The notes under the pieces: generated by a model
What the model saw: the letters and a program-made list of their open reading frames with translations, nothing else
Database searches by the model: none
What the model was told of the DNA's origin: nothing
Origin: Synergistaceae bacterium
GTDB taxonomy: Bacteria; Synergistota; Synergistia; Synergistales; Aminobacteriaceae
Assembly: GCA_031272035.1 (NCBI GenBank)
Contig: JAISUO010000038.1
Span: forward strand, 1 to 61,846
Direction of reading: 5' to 3'
DNA: 61,846 bases
Shown: piece after piece, positions 39,823-51,452 of the stretch
How the letters are laid out: each line of letters opens with the position of its first letter
How positions within the stretch are numbered: the first letter of the stretch is position 1
Made by a program: the position numbers and the translations under genes

Positions 39823-40180
39823 GAAACATACGCCTCCCTGATCCAAAAATACAAGCATCCAGACAGCCACGGCAGTATAACACATTCGAGGCCTCAGAGA
39901 CAATAGCTCCCGCGAGAATTGCGAGAATCTCCCCATCGAGCCTCATCGAGCGGACCGGATCGACAGGAACAACGCCGGAGGGCAGCCGCGCAGCAAAATG
40001 CGTGTAAAAATTTCGGGACACACAAAATCCATAAAATAAACACATAAAACTCATAAAATGAAAACTCTTGTAGATATAATAGTCTTATCGATCCGCTTAT
40101 TAATCTGTGTATGGATACGTATAAAATGAAAAGATCGACAAGGCTTTTTTTGATCATAATTTTAAGGACGGTCAAACGCA
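39823..40180. other. 358-bp divergent spacer between rpmH and the efflux operon
   Basis: No gene seen. It holds the rpmH promoter at its left end. The right half (39990-40150) is AT-rich, with ATAAAA-type direct repeats (CATAAAAT, CATAAAAC, TATAAAAT) and a TATAAT at 40075-40080 that may be the -10 for the pump operon. I looked for DnaA boxes because rpmH is often near oriC and found no cluster. Confidence 0.6.
39874..39903 (-). promoter_or_regulatory. rpmH promoter
   Basis: TTGTCT (39903-39898), 18-nt spacer, TATACT (39879-39874) on the minus strand, about 52 nt before the rpmH start. Confidence 0.6.
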
Positions 40181-43100
40181 ATGAAAATTATCGACACTTC
40201 GCTGAAGCGCCCTGTAACGGTTCTGATCCTGACGATCGCTGTTCTCATCGTCGGTTTTTATTCCTACGCGAATATGGGCGTCGAACGAATGCCGAACATC
40301 GACTTCCCCATCGTCGTCGTGCGGACGACAATGGAAGGCGCGGCTCCGGCCATCATGGACAACGACGTGACGGACGTGCTGGAAGCCCGCATCAACACCA
40401 TCGAAGGCATAAAAAACATCTCCTCCAGCAGCTACGAAGGACGTTCCGTGATCGTCATCGAATTTGACCTGGACAGGAACATCGACTTCGCGGCGGCCGA
40501 CGTTCGGGGCAAGGTCAGCATGGCCAGAGGGCGGCTTCCCGACGACTGCGAAGAACCCCAGATCGATAAATACGACCCCTCCGACAGACCGATCATCAAC
40601 ATCGCCGTGGAGTCCGACGGGCGGACGGACATGCGGTCCGTGGCGCGCTACGTGGACAACGTGGTTTCCGAACGCCTTCAGACCGTCACGGGCGTCGGCA
40701 GCGTGCAGCTGGCCGGGTTCCGGGACCGGGAAATAAGAGTCTGGCTCAACACCGACAGCATGGAAGCCTACGGCGTTACGACGAAGGACATTAAAACCGC
40801 CATTTACAACCGGCACGTGGAGCTTCCCGCGGGACGAATAGAAACCGGAACCCGGGAGTACGGCATCCGGCTCAACGGTGAATACCGCTCCGTCTCCGAG
40901 CTGGCCTCCGTGCCCGTCACCTTCCGAAACGGGGCGATCATACGCCTCAACGACCTGGCCCGCATCGAGGACGATTTCGAGGACAGGCGCAGCCAGTCCC
41001 TGTACGAAAACAAACCCACCATCATGGTGCAGGTGCGGAAACAGAAGGGCGCCAACGAGGTCGCGCTCTCCCGGGGCGTGCGTCAGCGTCTTGAGGAACT
41101 CAACAAAATCGCCCCCCGGGGAACGAAACTCGTGATCGTCTCCGACACATCCCGCTTTATCCTCCGCTCCATGAACGGCGTCCGCGGCGACATCATCCTG
41201 GCGATCTGCCTCACCTCCATCATCATGTTCGTGTTTCTGCGCACCCTTCGGGCGACGATCATCGCGGTCATCACCATTCCGGTCTGCCTCCTGGGAAGCA
41301 TCGCGGTGCTTTACTGGATGGGGATCACCATCAACAACATCTCCATGATGGGCCTGTCGCTGGCGGTGGGCATGGTCGTCGACGCCACCAGCGTCGTCAT
41401 GGAAAACATATCGCGCCACAAGGCCATGGGCAAAACCACCATGCGCGCGGCCAGAGAGGGCGCGGGAGAGGTGGGGTTCGCCGTCATCGCCGGAGCCGCC
41501 ACCACTCTGGCGGTTTTCCTCCCCATCGCCTTCATGGGCGGCATGATGGGCAAAATATTCAACGCCTTCGGCATCACGGTGGCCATGACCATCAGCATCT
41601 CCCTTCTGCTTTCCCTCACCCTCACGCCTTTCCTGTGCTCGCGGATTCTGAGCAGGGAGCGTCAGGGACTCCTGCAGAGGATTCTGGAGGCGCCGTTCAT
41701 CCTTCTGGAGCGAGGGTACAAAATCGCGCTGGCGTCGGCGATTCGCCACCGATACACCACCGTCCTCATCGCCCTTGCCGTGTTCATGGGGGGGCTCTTT
41801 CTGGCGACGAAGCTGGGCTCTGAATTTCAGCCCACCGAGGACCAGGGATTTCTGCGCCTCAACATGGAGCTTCCCGCCGAAACCGCCCTTGAGGTCACGG
41901 AGCGCGTCATGGGCGAGATGATCAAAGTCATCGAGGAGGAGCCCAGCGTCGCGTACACCTACGGCGTGGCCGGCAGCGGACAGGGAGAGGAAGTCTACAA
42001 GGGCACGCTCACGATAGAACTCATCCCCAGAGATCAGCGCCCGCCCTCCAGCGTCATCATGTCCACCCTGCGCCGAAAACTCGCCGCGTTCCGGGACGTG
42101 GACATCAAAATGGGCAACTGGGGCGGTTCCGACCTCACGCTGGTGGTTCGGGGACCCACCAGCGAGGCCCTCGCCGAAATCGGCGACCGGATCAAGGCCG
42201 ACCTCGCCAAAAATCCCCGGGGCCTCGTGGACATCATGACCGACCTGCAGATGAACAAGCCGCGCATCAACCTGGAGCTGAACCGGGCTCTGGCCGACGA
42301 CCTGGGCGTGAACATCCGGGACCTCTCCGACGAGCTGGACGCCTGGTTCGGGGGAGACGACAGCGGCTCGACCTTCAGCGAGGGGGGCTACCGGTACAAC
42401 ATTAAAATTCGGGCTGAAAACAACCTCCGCGACGACCCGAACCGGGTGTTCAACACCCTCGTGAGGACGGAGGGAGGAAAGGTCATCCGGGCCGAGGGGC
42501 TCGTGACCAGCAGCATCGGCGTTTCTCCCAACGTCATCAAGCGATACAACAGGCAGCGTTCGATTCAGATCAGCGCCAACGTGGAGGGAATCTCTCCCGG
42601 CGAGGGCATAACGATCATGGAGGACGAGTTCCGCAAATTCGCCCCTCAGGACGGGACCTACGACATGGTTCCCACCGGAGACTCCGAGCGGATGAAGGAC
42701 ACGTTTTCCGCCATGACCATCGCCCTCGTGTTCGCCATTCTGCTGGTTTACATCGTGATGGCCATCCAGTTCGAGTCGTTTCTGCATCCCTTCACGGTCA
42801 TGTTCTCCCTGCCCCTGATGACGGCGGGCTCCTTCGGCCTGATGTACCTCTTCCGGCTTCGCATCAGCGTCATGAGTTTCATGGGGATCATCCTGCTCGT
42901 GGGAGTGGTGGTCAACAACGCGATTCTGCTGGTGGACTTCATCAATCAGCTTCGGGCCGGCGGAATGAAGAAGCTGGACGCGGTGCTCGCCAGCGGGCCT
43001 CTGCGTCTGCGGGCGATACTGATGACCACGGTATCCACCATCGTGGGGAACCTGCCGGTGGCCCTCGCCCTCAGCGAAGGCGGCGAAATGCGCCAGCCCA

Positions 43101-44593
43101 TGTCCGTGGCGGTAACCGGCGGTCTGTTTACGTCCACCCTTCTCACGCTTTTCGTCATACCGGTCGTCTACCTCATCTTCGATGACATGAAAGACAGAGT
43201 CGTGGCCCGCATTCGCCGTTTCAACGCCTGGCGGCGCCTGCGCGAACAGCGGTCCCGTAAGAATCCCGACGCCGGCAGTTCCGAAATCGGGACGTCCGCG
43301 GCAATTTTTCTGATGACGGGGATTCTGCTTCTGACGCCCCTTTCCCCCGCCGAGGCGGACACAAAAACCCCGCTGAACATCAGAGAGGCGGTGGAGCTGA
43401 CCCTCGCCCGCAATTCAACGCTTCTCTCGCTTCGGGAGGAAGCTCTGAAGGCTTACGCGTTCAAACTTCAGGCGGACGGAACCATGACTCCTCAGGTTTC
43501 CATCAGCGGCAGCGCCAACCTTCAAAAGGAAACTCAGACCTCCGACGGCTCCGACCGCAAAGACTCCAGAGCCGTCACCGCCGCCCTGTCCCAGACGCTT
43601 TACTCCGGGGGCAGAAATTCGGCGCTGCGCCGTCAGTCGTCACAGGTCCGGTCCATCGCCGAACTCAATCTGGCGGATGCGGAAAATCGAGCGATTGGAG
43701 AGCTTTTTGCCCGTTTCTACAACGTTCTGCTGCAGGAACGACGGGTGGAAACCGAACGATCGGCCATCGTGGCAGGGGAACTGCACCTGCGGGAGGTGAC
43801 GCGCATGAACGAGCTGGGCCTGTCGAACCGGCTGGAGGTGATCCGCGCCTCCCAGCAGCTGGCGGCCAGCCGGGCGGATTTCGCGTCGGCCGAGGGGCTC
43901 CGGGACGCGGCGCAAATCTCCCTTATGAACTTCCTTGCCGTTCCGCCGGAGGAGCGCCGGCCGGTGGACGGAAAGCTGGCGCCCATGGAAATTTCGGGAA
44001 ACAGGCAGGAATCTCTGGCGGCCGCGATGAGCAACCGGGCGGACCTTGCCGCTCTCAAACAGCAGATCGAATATCAGAGCAACCAGATAGAAATCGAACG
44101 CAGCGCCCTGCGCCCACAGCTCGGTCTCACCGCCTCCACGGGGCTGTCGGACCCGTACAACCGCGAGGACCGTGGAGGGGACACCTGGAGGGCCGACCTG
44201 ACGCTCACTCTTCCCATTTTCGACCGCGGCGTCTCACGGGGAAACGTCATCAAAGCTCAGGCCGTGATGAAGCAGAACGAAATTGCCCGGGCGCAAAAAG
44301 AGCTGGATGTAAAATCGGAAACGGAGACGGCGTGGACCGAACTGGAAACGGCCAGGGAAAATCTGGAGTCCACGGCGCAGGCCCTGGAACTTGCCGAGGA
44401 GACGCTGAGGCTGGCGGAAGTCGGTTTTCAGGAGGGAGTGACGCCTCAGCTCGACCTGCTCTCGGCCCAAACTTCTCTCACGGAAAGCCGGCTTGAACAT
44501 CTTCGTTCACTGTATAATAATCTTCTCGCGATTGTCGCGCTCAAAGTGACTGAGGGGAATATCGCGGACTGGGTTGAAGGGATGACATTCTGA
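40181..44593 (+). CDS. RND efflux pump fused to a TolC-like outer-membrane channel
   Basis: 1470 residues in one uninterrupted frame. Residues 1-1025 form a complete HAE-type RND pump: MKIIDTSLKRPVTVLILTIAVL at the start, two periplasmic loops, and VGMVVDATSVVMENISRH in helix 4 with the proton-relay Asp. The last helix is TLLTLFVIPVVYLIFDD. After a basic linker (about 1025-1035) comes a signal-peptide-like segment, IFLMTGILLLTPLSPAEA, with a good AEA/D cleavage site at 1059/1060. Residues 1060-1470 are a TolC-type channel: LNIREAVELTLARNSTLLSLREEALKA, two repeats of helix-strand elements, LTLPIFDRGVSRGNV and a final coiled-coil helix. The pump extrudes substrates that the adaptor gene product links to the channel. 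A fusion of pump and channel needs either cleavage or internal initiation (ATG 43313) to work. Codon use is uniform across the join. Confidence 0.9.
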   Translation: MKIIDTSLKRPVTVLILTIAVLIVGFYSYANMGVERMPNIDFPIVVVRTTMEGAAPAIMDNDVTDVLEARINTIEGIKNISSSSYEGRSVIVIEFDLDRNIDFAAADVRGKVSMARGRLPDDCEEPQIDKYDPSDRPIINIAVESDGRTDMRSVARYVDNVVSERLQTVTGVGSVQLAGFRDREIRVWLNTDSMEAYGVTTKDIKTAIYNRHVELPAGRIETGTREYGIRLNGEYRSVSELASVPVTFRNGAIIRLNDLARIEDDFEDRRSQSLYENKPTIMVQVRKQKGANEVALSRGVRQRLEELNKIAPRGTKLVIVSDTSRFILRSMNGVRGDIILAICLTSIIMFVFLRTLRATIIAVITIPVCLLGSIAVLYWMGITINNISMMGLSLAVGMVVDATSVVMENISRHKAMGKTTMRAAREGAGEVGFAVIAGAATTLAVFLPIAFMGGMMGKIFNAFGITVAMTISISLLLSLTLTPFLCSRILSRERQGLLQRILEAPFILLERGYKIALASAIRHRYTTVLIALAVFMGGLFLATKLGSEFQPTEDQGFLRLNMELPAETALEVTERVMGEMIKVIEEEPSVAYTYGVAGSGQGEEVYKGTLTIELIPRDQRPPSSVIMSTLRRKLAAFRDVDIKMGNWGGSDLTLVVRGPTSEALAEIGDRIKADLAKNPRGLVDIMTDLQMNKPRINLELNRALADDLGVNIRDLSDELDAWFGGDDSGSTFSEGGYRYNIKIRAENNLRDDPNRVFNTLVRTEGGKVIRAEGLVTSSIGVSPNVIKRYNRQRSIQISANVEGISPGEGITIMEDEFRKFAPQDGTYDMVPTGDSERMKDTFSAMTIALVFAILLVYIVMAIQFESFLHPFTVMFSLPLMTAGSFGLMYLFRLRISVMSFMGIILLVGVVVNNAILLVDFINQLRAGGMKKLDAVLASGPLRLRAILMTTVSTIVGNLPVALALSEGGEMRQPMSVAVTGGLFTSTLLTLFVIPVVYLIFDDMKDRVVARIRRFNAWRRLREQRSRKNPDAGSSEIGTSAAIFLMTGILLLTPLSPAEADTKTPLNIREAVELTLARNSTLLSLREEALKAYAFKLQADGTMTPQVSISGSANLQKETQTSDGSDRKDSRAVTAALSQTLYSGGRNSALRRQSSQVRSIAELNLADAENRAIGELFARFYNVLLQERRVETERSAIVAGELHLREVTRMNELGLSNRLEVIRASQQLAASRADFASAEGLRDAAQISLMNFLAVPPEERRPVDGKLAPMEISGNRQESLAAAMSNRADLAALKQQIEYQSNQIEIERSALRPQLGLTASTGLSDPYNREDRGGDTWRADLTLTLPIFDRGVSRGNVIKAQAVMKQNEIARAQKELDVKSETETAWTELETARENLESTAQALELAEETLRLAEVGFQEGVTPQLDLLSAQTSLTESRLEHLRSLYNNLLAIVALKVTEGNIADWVEGMTF

Positions 44594-45798
44594 TGATTGC
44601 GATGAAGTTGGAAAAATGGAAAAAAAGGACTGGCGGGACCCGCGCGGTGACAGTAGTGCTCTTTCTCGCGCTTTTTGCGGGAGCGGCGTGGTATTTTCTG
44701 ATCTTCAGGGGGGCGAAGGCGTCCTCTCAGGAGCTGAAACCGGCGGAACCCGCGGCCTCAGTTCAGGCGGCTTACGTTCGGGTGGAAATCGCCTCGGGCA
44801 ACGGGGTTGTGCGCGAAAGCATCGACCAGAACATGTCCATTGAGGCGATAAACAGAGTGCAGATGCTGCCACGGGTCACAGGCAGACTTGAAAAACTTCA
44901 CGTGAGGCCCGGCGATATTGTGACAAAAGGTCAGCTCATCGCCACTCTGGAGCACGAGCAGCAGAACGCCCTCATCGGCTCCACCGAGGCGCAGGTGGCC
45001 TCCGCCAGAGCCGACACGGAGCGGGCACGGGCCGAGATGATGAACGCCAAAACCAACCTCGACCGCTACCAGAGGCTTCTCAAAGAGGGGTTCAGCACGC
45101 AGCAGCAGTACGACTCCATCGCCACGTCCTACGCCAGCGCGAGGGCGAGCTACAACGCCGCCCAGGCCAAAGAAAAACAGGCCGCTGCCGAGCTTGGCCG
45201 GGTGAAATCCACCCAGCAGGATTACATCATGTACTCCCCTCTGGACGGAACCGTTCTGTCCGACTACTCCCTCACCGCCGGCGCGATGATCTCCCCTTCC
45301 TCGCCCATCGTGGACATCGCCGATCTTAGGAGGCTCAAGGCGACGGTTCGGGTTCCGGAGGTCAAAATTTTCATCGTCCACCCGGGCATGGACGTCATCA
45401 TGAGGTTCGACGCTCTGGAGGGCAGGGAATTTCACGGCCACGTGACCCGCATCGAGCCCTACGTCGATCCCGCGACCCGCACCAGCGTCGTCGAAATGGA
45501 GATCGACAACGAAGCCCTTGGAAACCTTCTGCGACCGGGCATGTTCGGCAGGGCGTCCATCGTGGAGAAAGAGTTTCGGGATGTGGTTCTCGTTCCCGAA
45601 AGCGCCATTCAGAGCGGTTCCGAGGGGCAGTTCGTCTTTTTCGAAAATGACGGCGCGGCGCGTCTGCAAAAAGTCAAAACCGGTTTGAGGCAGGGCAATT
45701 ATCTTCAGGTGACGGAGGGAGTCGTCTCCGGCGACCGCGTCATCGTCTTCGGGGGCGCCAGCCTCAACGACGGCGACAGGGTGACCATTCAGCAATAA
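44593..45798 (+). CDS. Periplasmic adaptor (membrane fusion protein) of the RND system
   Basis: 401 residues. The start overlaps the fused pump's stop codon (TGATG). ATG 44602 is an alternative. It has one N-terminal membrane anchor (AVTVVLFLALFAGAAWYFLIF), a lipoyl half-motif (QMLPRVTGRLEKLHVRPGDIVTKGQLIATLE), a helical hairpin with about 90 residues (NALIGSTEAQVASARADTERARAEMM onwards), the second lipoyl half (DYIMYSPLDGTVLSDYSLTAGAMISPSSPI) and beta-barrel and membrane-proximal domains. It bridges pump and outer-membrane channel. No lipobox Cys is present. With the fused gene it makes a full tripartite system in only two genes. Confidence 0.93.
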   Translation: MIAMKLEKWKKRTGGTRAVTVVLFLALFAGAAWYFLIFRGAKASSQELKPAEPAASVQAAYVRVEIASGNGVVRESIDQNMSIEAINRVQMLPRVTGRLEKLHVRPGDIVTKGQLIATLEHEQQNALIGSTEAQVASARADTERARAEMMNAKTNLDRYQRLLKEGFSTQQQYDSIATSYASARASYNAAQAKEKQAAAELGRVKSTQQDYIMYSPLDGTVLSDYSLTAGAMISPSSPIVDIADLRRLKATVRVPEVKIFIVHPGMDVIMRFDALEGREFHGHVTRIEPYVDPATRTSVVEMEIDNEALGNLLRPGMFGRASIVEKEFRDVVLVPESAIQSGSEGQFVFFENDGAARLQKVKTGLRQGNYLQVTEGVVSGDRVIVFGGASLNDGDRVTIQQ

Positions 45799-45827
45799 GA
45801 TAATAAGGGAAAGGCTCCATCACCGGT

Positions 45828-47186
45828 TCATTCATCGATACCGAGGGCGATGGTGACCACCAGACCGCCTCCCGGCGCGTTTGCCGCGAAGACATTTCCC
45901 CCGTGGCTTTCGACGATGCGTCTCGTGATGGACAGGCCCAGCCCCACCCCTCCCTGGGACCGCTCCCGGGCCTTGTCGGTTCGATAATAGGGCAGAAAGA
46001 TTTTTTCCAGCTCCTCCTCGGCGACGCCGTATCCGTGGTCGCGAACGGTGAGAACGGCGCGTTTCGCCCTGTTTCCCTCTTCCTGTCTCTCTTTCTGGCC
46101 ATCTTCCTGACGCAGGTCGATTTCAACGACGCTTTCCGGGTCGATGTAGCGAAGGGCGTTTTGAATGACGTTGTACAGCGCCCGTTTCAGCAGGAGCGCG
46201 TCGCCGCGGACGGCGAGCTTCGGGGCGTTCAGGATCACGATCGTTTTTCCGGAGGTGTTCGCGAAGGCGGCATCCTCCACCGCGGAGCGAAGAACCTCGT
46301 CCAGCGCCACCCGTTCGGAGTGGGTCAGAGAGCCCTCCTCCACCCGGGTCAGGGTCAGAAGCTCCTCCACCATGTCGTCGATACATTTCACTTCCAGCTC
46401 GATGCGTTCCAGATATTTATTTTCGAGCTCCGACGCGGGCTGGAGGTTCTTTCGCAAAAGCGCCGCGGCCAGGTCCATGCGCTGCAGAGGAGAGCGTATT
46501 TCGTGAGAGATGTCCCGCAGAAGCCGTTTTTGGGAGGAGACGAGGTTTTCCACGCACTCGGCCATCTTATTGAAACTTTTACCCAGAGCGGCGATTTCGT
46601 CGCCCCGACCTGTGACGCTGGGGTCCACCCTCACCGAAAAAACGCCTCCCGCCAGTTTTTGAGTAATATCCTGAAGTTTCGACAGGGGCGTCATGAAGTT
46701 TTTCACCAGCATAAAACTGAAGAACACGGACAGAACGGCCACCGCCATGGGAATTTTGATAAAATCCAAAAAATTCGCCGGCCCCTGGTGCCGCAGGGCG
46801 GCGACAACCCGCGTGCGCCCCGATGGAGACAGGAAAGTCTCGAAAAAACGAAAGGGAGTTTCTTCCGCCTGGGCGTCAAGACGCTCCGCGCCTTCCGTGA
46901 AAAAACTTTCCCCGTCCCGTTCCACACGAATCTCCAGGTCGCTGGAAGCCCTGACGGCTTCGATCCAGGGCAGCAGCTCCTCCCGCGGGATCGAATCCGC
47001 CTGTCGGGCCAGTTCGGAGACGTGCCATTCCAGATGTTTGAAAATTTTCAGCGGCTCCCGGTCCTCCCGATCCTGAAGCACCCGGGCGAGATGGGTCAGA
47101 TGAATGATGATCATGGGCAGAAAAAGCACCAGAAGCAGAGTGAGGTAGATTTTCCAGAAAAGCGAGGGAAAGACGAGGCGTTTCAT
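45828..47186 (-). CDS. Sensor histidine kinase, CpxA-like
   Basis: 452 residues. Two membrane helices (about 8-30 and 145-165) bracket a periplasmic sensor of about 110 residues. A HAMP linker (SKLQDITQKLAGGVFSVRVDPSVTGRGDEIAALGKSFN is continuous) leads to the phosphoacceptor His in LLRDISHEIRSPLQRM. The ATPase domain has N box NVIQNALRYI, G1 DHGYGV and G2 GVGLGLSITRRI. The chain ends in the Bergerat fold. A low-complexity QEDGQKERQEEG insert sits before G1. The start overlaps the response-regulator stop (ATGA), so the two form an operon. It is convergent with the efflux operon, 29 nt apart; a control link is possible but not shown. Confidence 0.93.
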   Translation of the reverse strand: MKRLVFPSLFWKIYLTLLLVLFLPMIIIHLTHLARVLQDREDREPLKIFKHLEWHVSELARQADSIPREELLPWIEAVRASSDLEIRVERDGESFFTEGAERLDAQAEETPFRFFETFLSPSGRTRVVAALRHQGPANFLDFIKIPMAVAVLSVFFSFMLVKNFMTPLSKLQDITQKLAGGVFSVRVDPSVTGRGDEIAALGKSFNKMAECVENLVSSQKRLLRDISHEIRSPLQRMDLAAALLRKNLQPASELENKYLERIELEVKCIDDMVEELLTLTRVEEGSLTHSERVALDEVLRSAVEDAAFANTSGKTIVILNAPKLAVRGDALLLKRALYNVIQNALRYIDPESVVEIDLRQEDGQKERQEEGNRAKRAVLTVRDHGYGVAEEELEKIFLPYYRTDKARERSQGGVGLGLSITRRIVESHGGNVFAANAPGGGLVVTIALGIDE

Positions 47187-47911
47187 GGCTGGTCCTCCGA
47201 AAAATCGTTTTTGGGGTAGACGTACATATACCCCTCATTTCTCAGGGTCCGGATGCGCTCTCTGCCGTCGGGATAAGGCCCGATTTTGCGCCTCAGACGG
47301 CTGATGTGGACGCTCAGGCTTCTGTCAAAGACGGTGTAATCCCGACCCAGAACGCTCAGGGAAAGCTGTTCCGCGGATATTTTTTTCCCCGCGCAGGAGA
47401 TCAGCGAGTCCAGCAGACTGAACTCGATATTGGTCAGGGAAATCTCCTTCGCCCCGACTTTGACGGAGCGGGCGCTTCGGCGCATTTCCAGGTCGACCAG
47501 GACGACTTTATCATGCCCCGGCCTTTCGGAAAGATCGCCGGACCGGCGCAGCACGGCCTTCAGTCGGGCCAGCAGCTCGCGCGCGTCGAAGGGTTTGCAG
47601 ATGTAATCGTCCGCGCCGATTTCCAGCCCAACGACTTTATCAATCTGATCGCCTCTGGCGGACAGCATGACCACCGGTACGTTCGAGATGTTGCGAATTT
47701 TCCTCAGAACGTCGAAGCCATCCTGTTCCGGCAGCATGATGTCCAAAATGACGATGTCATACGAATGATCGTCCAAAAGTTTCAATCCGGCGTTTCCGGA
47801 GTGGGCGCAGGCAAATTCAAAACCCTCCGATTGCAGGTAGTCCCTGAGCAGCGCACAAAGGTCCACGTCATCGTCGATCACAAGAACATGTTTGATTTTC
47901 TGAACCTCCAT
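47183..47911 (-). CDS. OmpR/PhoB-type response regulator
   Basis: 242 residues. Receiver domain: acidic pair VIDDDVDLC, phosphorylated Asp in VILDIMLPEQDGF, Ser in VVMLSARG, Lys in DDYICKPFDARELLARLKAVLRR. C-terminal winged helix: AKEISLTNIEFSLLDSLISCAGKKISAEQLSLSVLGRD, with the RSLSVHISRLRRKIGPYPDG recognition helix region. It partners the downstream kinase. CpxR and related regulators govern envelope stress and efflux genes, which suits the neighbouring pump. Confidence 0.95.
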   Translation of the reverse strand: MEVQKIKHVLVIDDDVDLCALLRDYLQSEGFEFACAHSGNAGLKLLDDHSYDIVILDIMLPEQDGFDVLRKIRNISNVPVVMLSARGDQIDKVVGLEIGADDYICKPFDARELLARLKAVLRRSGDLSERPGHDKVVLVDLEMRRSARSVKVGAKEISLTNIEFSLLDSLISCAGKKISAEQLSLSVLGRDYTVFDRSLSVHISRLRRKIGPYPDGRERIRTLRNEGYMYVYPKNDFSEDQP

Positions 47912-47997
47912 TATTTTCGATTATGACTATCAAGTTGTTTCAGATCAGGCCGAGCGGGTACTTCCCCCCACCGCGCCAAATCTTCCCCGAGATTACG

Positions 47998-49176
47998 TCA
48001 GAAGCGCGGGCGCGGGCCGCCGCCGGGGCCTCCTCCTCCGGAGCCAAAGGTGTCTCCAATGTTGAACTCTCCGACCGTCCCTGAAAGGATGAAGTCTTCT
48101 TCTTCGCCGCCTGACTGGCTCGAATAAGTCTCCTTCGAGCCTCCGGTGTAAGAGGCTTCCGTGTCGTACAGGCCGTCGCGCTCAGTTCCGTCAGACGTCC
48201 CTCCCGTGTAGACGTTGTACGCGACGCCGCTCTGCAGGCTCGGGCTGCTGAAAATAAATCCGCGGCAGTCTCGGCCCGTTTTATACGTGACGAGCGCCGC
48301 CCCCTGTTTGTCCGCGATGTGGATTGTCGTGCCTGACGGCTGCGCGGCGCCGAAATTCAGCGATAAGACCTTCTGGGCGGACGACTCGTCCGCTCTGGCG
48401 TTGTTATCCCCCGTGCCGATCACAAGACCGCCGTTGATCAACAGCCTGAAGCCGTCTCCGGCGTCCAATCCGCCGTTGTCGGGGCCTCCCATCGCGATGA
48501 CGGTTCCGCCGTTTATCGTGAGGTTCGCGTTGGAGTCGATCCCGTCTCCAATGGCGTCCACATAGAGGTAGCCTCCGTCGATGACGATGCCCTCTCCGGC
48601 GTTAAGGCCGTCGTCAACCGCGGATACTCGGATGTCGCCTCCGCTGATGGTGAGGGTCGAGTCGCTCGCGATCCCCTCCTGACAGTTTCCGACTGCGACG
48701 AGGGAACCGCCGCCCCCGATTTCAAGAGGCACGGAACTAAATATGGCGGCGTCGCGATCCGCGTCCGCCCCACCGTCAGAAACGGCGTTGACGGTTCCTT
48801 CGGACAGAATCAGCCTCACCAGGGACGCCGATTTCGCAAAGATTGCCGGGCCGCTGGAATTGGCGATCGTCACGCCGGAAAGGTTGACGTTGACCTCCTG
48901 ACTGGAGGTGTCTATGACGAGGCAGCCATCGCTCAGCACACCGGAGACGTCGTAATCCCCCGCTTCGGTGAGGATGACTTCGCCATCGGCCAGCGAATGC
49001 CCCGGCCCCTTCACGATTAACCCGGACGTGTCCGGAGCACCCGACATCCCGTCGTTGACGGCGTTTGAGCCTCCGCCGCAGCCCCCTGAGCACGTCATGA
49101 GGAACAGCGACATAAACAGGAGCAGAAAAAAACTTACGACGCTGCGAACGCTTGAATGAATAAAATGTTTTCTCAC
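47998..49176 (-). CDS. Lipoprotein with carbohydrate-binding beta-helix repeats (Cthe_2159-type)
   Basis: About 392 residues from GTG 49176, which has GAGGTG 6 nt upstream. An earlier ATG at 49302 would place a basic stretch before the signal and is not supported. The signal peptide ends in a lipobox, LFLMTC, so Cys is lipidated. The mature part has parallel beta-helix repeats with many Gly and Asp: TLTISGGDIRVSAVDDGLNAGEGIVIDGG, YLYVDAIGDGIDSNANLTINGGT and GGLDAGDGFRLLINGGLVIGTG. These resemble the calcium-dependent polysaccharide-binding Cthe_2159 family. The tail is Gly-rich (FGSGGGGPGGGPRPRF). The substrate is not known. Confidence 0.8.
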   Translation of the reverse strand: MRKHFIHSSVRSVVSFFLLLFMSLFLMTCSGGCGGGSNAVNDGMSGAPDTSGLIVKGPGHSLADGEVILTEAGDYDVSGVLSDGCLVIDTSSQEVNVNLSGVTIANSSGPAIFAKSASLVRLILSEGTVNAVSDGGADADRDAAIFSSVPLEIGGGGSLVAVGNCQEGIASDSTLTISGGDIRVSAVDDGLNAGEGIVIDGGYLYVDAIGDGIDSNANLTINGGTVIAMGGPDNGGLDAGDGFRLLINGGLVIGTGDNNARADESSAQKVLSLNFGAAQPSGTTIHIADKQGAALVTYKTGRDCRGFIFSSPSLQSGVAYNVYTGGTSDGTERDGLYDTEASYTGGSKETYSSQSGGEEEDFILSGTVGEFNIGDTFGSGGGGPGGGPRPRF

Positions 49177-49449
49177 TTTTTTCACCTCACTTTTGGAGAA
49201 TACCGATAAAAACCGACGACGCCTGCCGCCTGTGAGCAGTATATGCGCCTGCACAAAAGAATAAGCACAAAGTTTTCGTTGTTTTCGTCTCTGCCCCTTC
49301 ATGCCTGATTTTACACCTTTTGCGCGTCTGGGTTGGGGGTTTTAATTTTCTTTACAATTCGTTACATTATTTTGCGTTCCTTTTGCCGCACCTTTGCTCA
49401 TCAGGACTATACTTTATTAAAATTTAAGTTCTGCAAAGGGGGAACAGGA

Positions 49450-50592
49450 ATGAATGTCGGTTCTGTATCGAGCGCCAGCGCGGCATTGGAAGAATATCTC
49501 GAAAAATTGAGAGAAAAAAAGAACCAACAGAGCGCGCCCAGCACGACCTCGAATCAAAGCACGCAAATCAGTATCAATATTGAGGAGATTATCGCCCAGC
49601 TTCAGGAACTGGAAGACGACCCCGAAGCTCTGAAAGCCAAGGCGGCGGAGTTGGCCGCCTCAGTCTCGAAAGCCGCTGAAGAAGAGGCCGGCAAGAAGGC
49701 GGAAATGCTTCAGGAGGTGGCGGCCGATCTTGACAGCGTGGCGAAAAGCGGGAACCTGTCCGTCATCACGGATAAGCTTCAGTCCCGCAGACCGCCCGCC
49801 GGCGGTGGAATGAACGGCCTCAGCGGACTGAGCGGAGCCAGCGAGGCGTCCATGAAGTGGCTGGAAGCCCTCCTGGCAGAAGAAGACGACGATGAAAGCA
49901 GTGAAACAGCTTCCACGGAAAGCGTCACTGAGGCCGCGGCAGAAGCGGCTGAAGCTACGGAAGCGGTTGCGAAAGCGGTAGCGGAAGCCGCGGAAAAATT
50001 GGAAGAATATCTTGAAAAATTGAGAGAAGCAAAGAACCAACAGAGCGACTCCAGCACGGCCTCGACTCAAAGCACGCAAACCAGGATCAATATTGAAGAA
50101 ATTATCGCCCAGCTTCAGGAACTGGAAGACGACCCCGAAGCCCTGAAAGCCAAGGCGGCGGAGTTGGCTGCCTCAGTCTCAAAAGTCGCTGCAGAAGAGG
50201 CCGGAAAGAGGGCGGAAATACTTCAGGAGATAGCGACCGACCTTGACAGCGTGGCGAAAAGCGGGGATCTGTCCGTCATCACGGATAAGCTTCAGTCCCG
50301 CAAACTGCTTGCCGGCGGCAGGATGAACGCTCTCAGCGGACTGAGCGGAGCCAGCGATGCATCCATGAAGTGGCTGGAGGCCCTCCTGACGGAAGAAGAT
50401 AACGCTGTGAGCAGTGAAACAGCCTCCACGGAAAGTGTCACAGAAATCGCGACAGAAGCAGCGGAAGAAGCCGCAGAAAAAGAAGAAGATCTGGAAAATC
50501 TTCTGATAACCGCAAAACTCAATCTGATGAATCAGCTGAGTGCGATGCTCAATCAAAAGACCAACTCCTTCTACAACTACTTCGCAGCGTAG
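49450..50592 (+). CDS. Unknown helical protein built of two 171-residue tandem copies
   Basis: About 380 residues from ATG 49450. The two copies (residues 13-183 and 184-354, nt offset 513) are very similar in protein and in DNA, so the duplication is recent or kept similar by gene conversion. Each has LEEYLEKLREKKNQQS, a Ser/Thr/Gln linker, INIEEIIAQLQELEDDPEALKAKAAELAASVSK, a second helix with LDSVAKSGNLSVITDKLQSR, a Gly-rich GLSGLSGAS(E/D)ASMKWLEALL motif and a Glu/Ala coil. The tail is KLNLMNQLSAMLNQKTNSFYNYFAA. No signal peptide or membrane helix. Mostly coiled coil, no Cys. I recognise no family. It lies beside fliD. The residues MNVGSVSSASAA at the N-terminus resemble those of flagellar or secreted proteins, but this is only a hint. 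Confidence 0.7.
   Translation: MNVGSVSSASAALEEYLEKLREKKNQQSAPSTTSNQSTQISINIEEIIAQLQELEDDPEALKAKAAELAASVSKAAEEEAGKKAEMLQEVAADLDSVAKSGNLSVITDKLQSRRPPAGGGMNGLSGLSGASEASMKWLEALLAEEDDDESSETASTESVTEAAAEAAEATEAVAKAVAEAAEKLEEYLEKLREAKNQQSDSSTASTQSTQTRINIEEIIAQLQELEDDPEALKAKAAELAASVSKVAAEEAGKRAEILQEIATDLDSVAKSGDLSVITDKLQSRKLLAGGRMNALSGLSGASDASMKWLEALLTEEDNAVSSETASTESVTEIATEAAEEAAEKEEDLENLLITAKLNLMNQLSAMLNQKTNSFYNYFAA
49486..50511. repeat. 513-bp intragenic tandem duplication
   Basis: Copy A 49486-49998 and copy B 49999-50511 (171 codons each). Long exact stretches remain, for example around 49588 and 50101. Differences are scattered single bases. Confidence 0.9.
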
Positions 50593-50617
50593 TGATTTCC
50601 CTCTGCACGGAAAGGAG

Positions 50618-50651
50618 AAAGGCCCCGTTAAACATCTGCGGGGCTTTTCTT
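50618..50651 (+). terminator. Rho-independent terminator after the duplicated-repeat gene
   Basis: GCCCCG / CGGGGC stem with an 11-nt loop, then TTTTC. 30 nt after the stop. Confidence 0.8.
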
Positions 50652-50695
50652 CATTTTTTCACCTTATAAAACGACGGTGTCATCTAAAATTGAAA

Positions 50696-50968
50696 TCAAA
50701 GGCCTCGATCTCGATAATGACTTCCGCACTGGGCTATTTCAATGCAACCGTCCTCGATTCTGTACACAAGGCGGTTCGCTTCATCAATTCTCCTGCTCCA
50801 CCAACCGGAGAGATCGCCTTTCAAAGGCTCTGGTTTTCCCAATCCTTCATACTCATTGCGGTCTATATCCTTCAAAAGTTGATTGATGCGTTTGATCATC
50901 TTTTTGTTCTCTGCCTGCCAGTATAGATAATCTTCCCATGCGGTTTGTTTAAAAATGAGGTCACGCAT
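50696..50968 (-). CDS. yoeB: Toxin YoeB/Txe family (ribosome-dependent mRNA interferase)
   Basis: 90 residues from ATG 50968, overlapping the antitoxin stop by 8 nt. YoeB toxins cleave mRNA at the ribosomal A site when not bound by the antitoxin. RDLIFKQTAWEDYLYWQAENKKMIKRINQLLKDI matches the N-terminus, and GWWSRRIDEANRLVYRIEDG and QCGSHYRD carry the conserved Arg and His residues. Unlike the second copy 4 kb away, the frame is intact. It forms an operon with the antitoxin upstream. The system is type II. Confidence 0.92.
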   Translation of the reverse strand: MRDLIFKQTAWEDYLYWQAENKKMIKRINQLLKDIDRNEYEGLGKPEPLKGDLSGWWSRRIDEANRLVYRIEDGCIEIAQCGSHYRDRGL

Positions 50969-51236
50969 TCTCCATAGTCTCCAGCTCCTCCATCGTCTTT
51001 CTGACAATACCCTGCCCTGCCTTTAATCCTTTGACAGCTTCACGAAGCCTGGCCTGATTGGCTTCACTGTAAAAAGGATCGGCTGCAACCTCGAAGGGAA
51101 TTTTGCCCTGCCGGACAACGGCCTTTGTGAAAATGGTAAACGCAGTGGTCATATTCAAACCCATATCCTCAAAAAGCGTTTCCGCCTGCTTCTTGAGATT
51201 CTCGTCCATGCGGATGGTAACGCTCGTGGTAGCCAT
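50961..51236 (-). CDS. Antitoxin, RelB/DinJ family
   Basis: 91 residues. The N-terminus (TTSVTIRMDENLKKQAETLFEDMGLNMTTAFTIFTKAVV) is a ribbon-helix-helix DNA-binding domain. The C-terminal half, DPFYSEANQARLREAVKGLKAG, would wrap the toxin. It would repress its own promoter and neutralise the YoeB toxin encoded next. Its ribosome site (AGGAGG) is good. DinJ-type antitoxins are usually paired with YafQ or YoeB-like toxins. Confidence 0.93.
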   Translation of the reverse strand: MATTSVTIRMDENLKKQAETLFEDMGLNMTTAFTIFTKAVVRQGKIPFEVAADPFYSEANQARLREAVKGLKAGQGIVRKTMEELETMENA

Positions 51237-51260
51237 ATCGTCTCGCCTCCTTTCACAACA

Positions 51261-51289
51261 AAAATACAGTTATTCGCTTACACTGTCAA
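51261..51289 (-). promoter_or_regulatory. Promoter of the first toxin-antitoxin operon
   Basis: TTGACA (51289-51284), 17-nt spacer, TATTTT (51266-51261) on the minus strand, 25 nt before the antitoxin start. ACAGT/ACTGT arms flank the spacer and may belong to the operator. Confidence 0.65.
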
Positions 51290-51380
51290 TACAAAATATA
51301 AATATTGTCCATTGTTCCCGGTGTTACGCATCTTTTGTCAGTACGTGATTACGCAATCCACAATAGCGTTTAAAGTCAAA

Positions 51381-51415
51381 AAAACCGGACCCTGCGGCCC
51401 GGTTTTCGTTTTTCT
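51381..51415. terminator. Bidirectional rho-independent terminator downstream of fliD
   Basis: AAAACCGG / CCGGTTTT stem with A-rich left and T-rich right flanks. It serves fliD (minus, seven T) and blocks plus-strand transcription (TTTTCGTTTTT). Confidence 0.85.
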
Positions 51416-51452
51416 GTTCTGTTCTTTTTCTCCGCTTTTTTTCGAAGATCCC

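Follow-up and report, generated by a model that had tools for sequence, protein, structure and literature searches.

A pump-channel fusion gene of the RND type in a Synergistaceae bacterium: a likely polyprotein with a predicted internal signal peptide at the joint

The window, i.e. the whole stretch of DNA that was analysed (61,846 nucleotides), contains an operon in which an RND-type pump and a TolC-type outer membrane factor (OMF) are encoded in a single reading frame. The genes and features of the locus, in window positions, are as follows:

40181-44593, forward strand: pump-channel fusion gene, 1470 amino acids, with ATG start and TGA stop and without internal stop
40181-43183, forward strand: RND permease part (residues 1-1001), HAE-type with 12 expected transmembrane helices; Pfam ACR_tran
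43184-43297, forward strand: charged cytoplasmic tail or linker (residues about 1002-1039); hydropathy and composition
43298-43357, forward strand: predicted internal signal peptide (residues 1040-1059, AAIFLMTGILLLTPLSPAEA), inferred from hydropathy and from its position relative to unfused OMFs
43358-44593, forward strand: mature part of the TolC-type OMF (residues 1060-1470 and the stop codon); two Pfam OEP matches and AlphaFold model
44593-45798, forward strand: periplasmic adaptor (HlyD/RND_mfp), a separate gene overlapping the fusion gene by one base
45828-47186, reverse strand: sensor kinase (Pfam), convergent neighbour of the pump operon
47183-47911, reverse strand: OmpR-type response regulator (Pfam), convergent neighbour of the pump operon

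An earlier note on this DNA had described a complete pump (to residue 1025) running into a complete TolC-like channel (from 1060), with the adaptor as a separate, translationally coupled gene. Both parts of this description were borne out. ACR_tran (PF00873) covers residues 3-1000 of the fusion (E 7e-264), the match extending over positions 1-1020 of the 1021 in the profile and scoring 879 bits against a cut-off of 28, and the best solved relative of the pump half is MdtB (E 5e-142). By simple hydropathy 11 of the 12 transmembrane helices were recognized in the window pump, and all 12 in that of G027 (see below) and in several others. The channel half contains two OEP repeats (PF02321; E 1e-44), which end at residue 1455. 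It is complete, since residues 985-1470 as modelled by AlphaFold (mean pLDDT 79) are matched in Foldseek by TolC, CusC and OprN, with E down to 3e-20 and TM-scores of 0.67-0.74. The adaptor, which scores above the RND_mfp cut-off, begins on the last base of the fusion stop codon (TGATG). The boundaries needed a small correction: the channel proper begins at about 1060, the last pump helix ends near residue 1000, the pump comprises about 1-1003, and what follows is the charged tail of the pump (about 1002-1039) and the putative signal peptide (about 1040-1059). Pairwise dN/dS values against relatives were 0.08-0.13 for the pump and 0.12-0.15 for the channel, within the range found among unfused relatives; by this measure purifying selection acts on the two halves alike. 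Because both halves align over their full length to genuine relatives and evolve under such constraint, a chance open frame is excluded.

The best profile for the window pump was RND_permease_2; the pump scores below all NCBIfam subfamily cut-offs. TIGR00914, which describes the CusA/CzcA (HME) pumps, gave 374 bits against a cut-off of 701, and judged by its profile matches the pump is of the HAE kind. From the AcrB-type proton relay (D407, D408, K940) the first aspartate alone is kept, D408 being replaced by alanine and K940 by asparagine. The corresponding motifs, VDAT and NNAI, are at pump residues 400-405 and 912-919 (window 41378-41395 and 42914-42937). Since replacements of this type are conserved, with small variations, across 57 Synergistota relatives, they are a trait of the clade and not a sign of decay in the fusion; pumps with VDAT and NNAI possibly use a different proton-coupling scheme.

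The operon lies in a stretch of about 11.5 kb (window 40100-51450) between rpmH and a FliD-like gene, beside the rpmH-rnpA-yidC cluster. In the congener G001 the stretch is missing and rpmH adjoins the FliD-like gene directly. A contaminant contig was rejected, as the best match of the window YidC is in its own genus (80%). In contrast, the window pump nests among genomes of another family, f4 (81-82% identity), for which YidC identity is only about 52-55%. Taken together, the placement of the pump, that of YidC and the missing stretch in G001 point to horizontal gain of the operon as the most likely origin, probably from another Synergistota family. No tRNA was found within the window. Besides the operon, the stretch contains the two-component system, whose sensor kinase and response regulator are possible regulators of the pump operon; no close homologues of them were found beside the unfused operons examined. 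Next to it is a 434-amino-acid protein (window 47998-49302) that combines a carbohydrate-binding domain of the Cthe_2159 type with a glycine-rich C-terminus (GGGGPGGGPRPRF), followed by a 419-amino-acid open reading frame (window 49333-50592) without Pfam match, located in a stretch of lower GC content (50%). The latter is internally duplicated, with two copies of a unit of ~180 amino acids that starts with LEEYLEKLRE.KNQQS.

To place the fusion among its relatives, 188 Synergistota genomes were searched and the DNA of the matches was read. The gene order pump - OMF - adaptor is conserved across the matches, but in nearly all of them pump and OMF are encoded separately, commonly with an overlap of 1-11 bp or a short gap, and the unfused OMFs carry their own N-terminal signal peptide. 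Only 2 of the 57 representative pump-OMF pairs are fused, the window and G027, the one other Synergistota genome in which the search suggested by the earlier note found the same fusion. The protein of G027, a member of another family, is a 1503-amino-acid pump-OMF chain (54% identity to the window fusion). On a maximum-likelihood tree of the pumps, where G027 is a long branch of unsure exact placement, the two fall into different well-supported clades and two fusion origins are needed, so that, by this tree, the G027 fusion is a second, independent one. Several further matches with long open frames, such as those in G153, G126, G136, G066, G054, G193 and G037, were also inspected as candidates; in all of them the pump either is separated from the OMF by a stop codon or has no OMF beside it. 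At four loci, L057 (G066 C77), L058 (G054 C9), L069 (G153 C94) and L066 (G136 C10), pump and OMF are in the same frame with a single stop codon between them; as read from the DNA, these loci are one substitution short of fusion.

Similar genes exist outside the phylum. A search of a plasmid collection with the window protein led to a gene of Pontibacter kalidii (WP_137761640.1; 1462 amino acids, ACR_tran and OEP), which is annotated as a CusA/CzcA transporter and is followed by an adaptor gene of its own. With this protein as query, 37 plasmid records were obtained in which one place covered at least 80% of it, the matches listed being from Bacteroidota. Plasmid matches to Acinetobacter AdeFGH (93% coverage) proved to be separate genes read through by tblastn. 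Eight Bacteroidota genes were examined; each is a single CDS for 1436-1482 amino acids with an adjoining adaptor gene. Their RefSeq name is 'CusA/CzcA family heavy metal efflux RND transporter', and the opinion of the earlier note that there is no standard annotation for such a fusion therefore does not hold: the same architecture is annotated as single CDSs in Bacteroidota. It also means that outer-membrane channels are hidden by annotation pipelines inside genes labelled as pumps only.

The joint between pump and channel was analysed on the basis of hydropathy and motifs. Residues 999-1039, the pump tail, contain 11 K/R and 6 D/E, and are followed by a hydrophobic stretch (mean hydropathy 1.87 over 1036-1054). 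The segment AAIFLMTGILLLTPLSPAEA sits where unfused OMFs carry their N-terminal signal peptides. RND pumps, with their even number of helices, have both ends in the cytoplasm, thus a signal peptide placed after the pump would run in-to-out and its cut site would be periplasmic. Residues 1002-1059 have the features expected of a signal peptidase I substrate, namely a basic n-region, a hydrophobic h-region, an A-x-A site and Nin-Cout topology, and cleavage is predicted at A1059|D1060, although prolines 1053 and 1056, close to the end of the hydrophobic stretch, count against the signal-peptide reading. The same succession of basic tail, hydrophobic stretch, small-x-small site and channel was found in all ten fused proteins (two from Synergistota, eight from Bacteroidota), with the cut-site triplets AEA, CLA, AQA, SRA, GKA, MNS, THA, VQA, LNA and TKA. 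Across the ten, the match to the signal peptidase motif looks good but not perfect, the -3 residues G, T, S, L, M and C being less typical than alanine.

Could the single frame be an error of sequencing or assembly, the true genome having two overlapping genes like its relatives? The gene comes from a draft assembly in 122 contigs; furthermore, in the close relatives (pump identity 74-82%) pump and OMF are two genes that often differ in frame, so that a single indel could fuse them. This was also the objection foreseen by the earlier note, and it nearly applies, since the close relatives do have two genes. However, G027 is fused independently, many Bacteroidota records are fused, and the two other frames of the window contain no ATG, GTG or TTG with which the channel could start between 43188 and 43313. 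The sole in-frame ATG near the channel, at 43313 (M1045), is within the hydrophobic core and is not preceded by a Shine-Dalgarno sequence. With no usable OMF start near the joint, a normal second gene would not reappear on correction of a single indel. No break in codon-position composition was found across the joint, and purifying selection acts on both halves. An error of sequencing or assembly is thus considered improbable, and the joint is probably genuine.

If the frame is genuine, the mature protein could still be one chain, as the single open frame would suggest, with the hydrophobic segment serving as a true thirteenth transmembrane helix and a tethered channel spanning to the outer membrane. 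We regard this as very improbable. The first channel helix follows the hydrophobic segment after only about 12 residues, whereas the corresponding region of solved TolC-type channels is located at a large distance above the inner membrane; a channel still tethered to the pump could therefore not be inserted into the outer membrane. Moreover, nearly all fusions, though of independent origin, have retained the cut-site motif. The lasting fusion across two membranes implied by the earlier note is accordingly unlikely, given an intact internal signal peptide exactly at the joint. It is also very improbable that the gene yields both the fusion and a separate channel by an internal start or re-initiation: G027 does have two internal ATGs before its signal peptide, and translation from the second would produce a signal peptide of normal type, about 30 residues long, but M1045 of the window would yield a 15-residue leader devoid of a basic n-region, and several Bacteroidota fusions have no start codon ahead of the h-region.

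The joint anatomy common to the fusions, the in-to-out topology and the presence of one signal peptidase I and one Omp85 in G000 make it likely that the gene encodes a pump-channel polyprotein, which is cut by signal peptidase I to release the channel to the outer membrane. A single ribosome would translate the 12-helix pump, both ends of which are cytoplasmic, and continue via the basic tail into what was once the channel's own N-terminal signal peptide, now acting as a thirteenth, in-to-out hydrophobic segment. The channel part would be exported by Sec, cleaved off after A1059 by signal peptidase I, assembled into the outer membrane by BAM and docked to the pump through the separately made adaptor. 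Such a gene would have originated when two neighbouring genes that overlapped lost the stop and start between them. It would plausibly be of benefit in giving equal amounts of pump and channel, which are 3:3 in the trimeric complex, the adaptor (6 per complex) staying separate; that equal dosage of the two trimeric parts, with the hexameric adaptor apart, was the gain of fusion is conjecture. Considering that just 2 of the 57 representative pairs from the phylum are fused, the fusion could be recent or near-neutral.

On balance, we favour the view that these fusions form a class of bacterial polyproteins, in which one product would serve two membranes through a signal-peptidase cut at a 1:1 ratio of pump to channel, and which would have evolved at least three times, twice with Synergistota HAE pumps and also with Bacteroidota metal pumps. 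Trans-envelope machines are usually put together from subunits that are synthesized independently and have to meet afterwards. A polyprotein feeding both membranes, if true, would tie pump and channel in amount, perhaps in place, and would make the stoichiometry and co-assembly of tripartite pumps directly testable. The pump-OMF architecture as such is already present in the databases, in another phylum and another RND branch and not named as a fusion; there seems to be no earlier description of the HAE version, of the independent origins or of the internal signal peptide that the fusions share. The open-access full-text literature yielded no account of an RND-OMF fusion or polyprotein, and none is mentioned in the accessible part of the tripartite-pump review PMC8277102.

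The closest known systems include the unfused operons of G154, G161 and Synergistaceae MAGs such as L081 and L094, the latter being the nearest named relatives. They have the same gene order (pump 81-82%, OMF 66-68%, adaptor 72-73% identical), but in place of the fusion there are two genes, which usually overlap or have a few bases between them. The G027 fusion shares the single chain, the internal signal peptide and the separate adaptor, and differs in keeping internal ATGs before the signal peptide. The Bacteroidota CusA/CzcA-OMF fusions have the same succession of pump and OMF, with an internal signal peptide at the joint and a separate adaptor downstream, but belong to the heavy-metal (HME) branch, in contrast to the HAE-type pump of the window (about 24% identity), and to another phylum; the window fusion arose separately from them. 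MdtB/AcrB and TolC/OprM have the folds and roles of the two halves, encoded there by separate genes. The FbcH cytochrome b/c1 precursor of Bradyrhizobium is a bacterial polyprotein whose second protein is likewise freed at an internal signal peptide; its products, which are unrelated to RND pumps and OMFs, both remain in or at the inner membrane.
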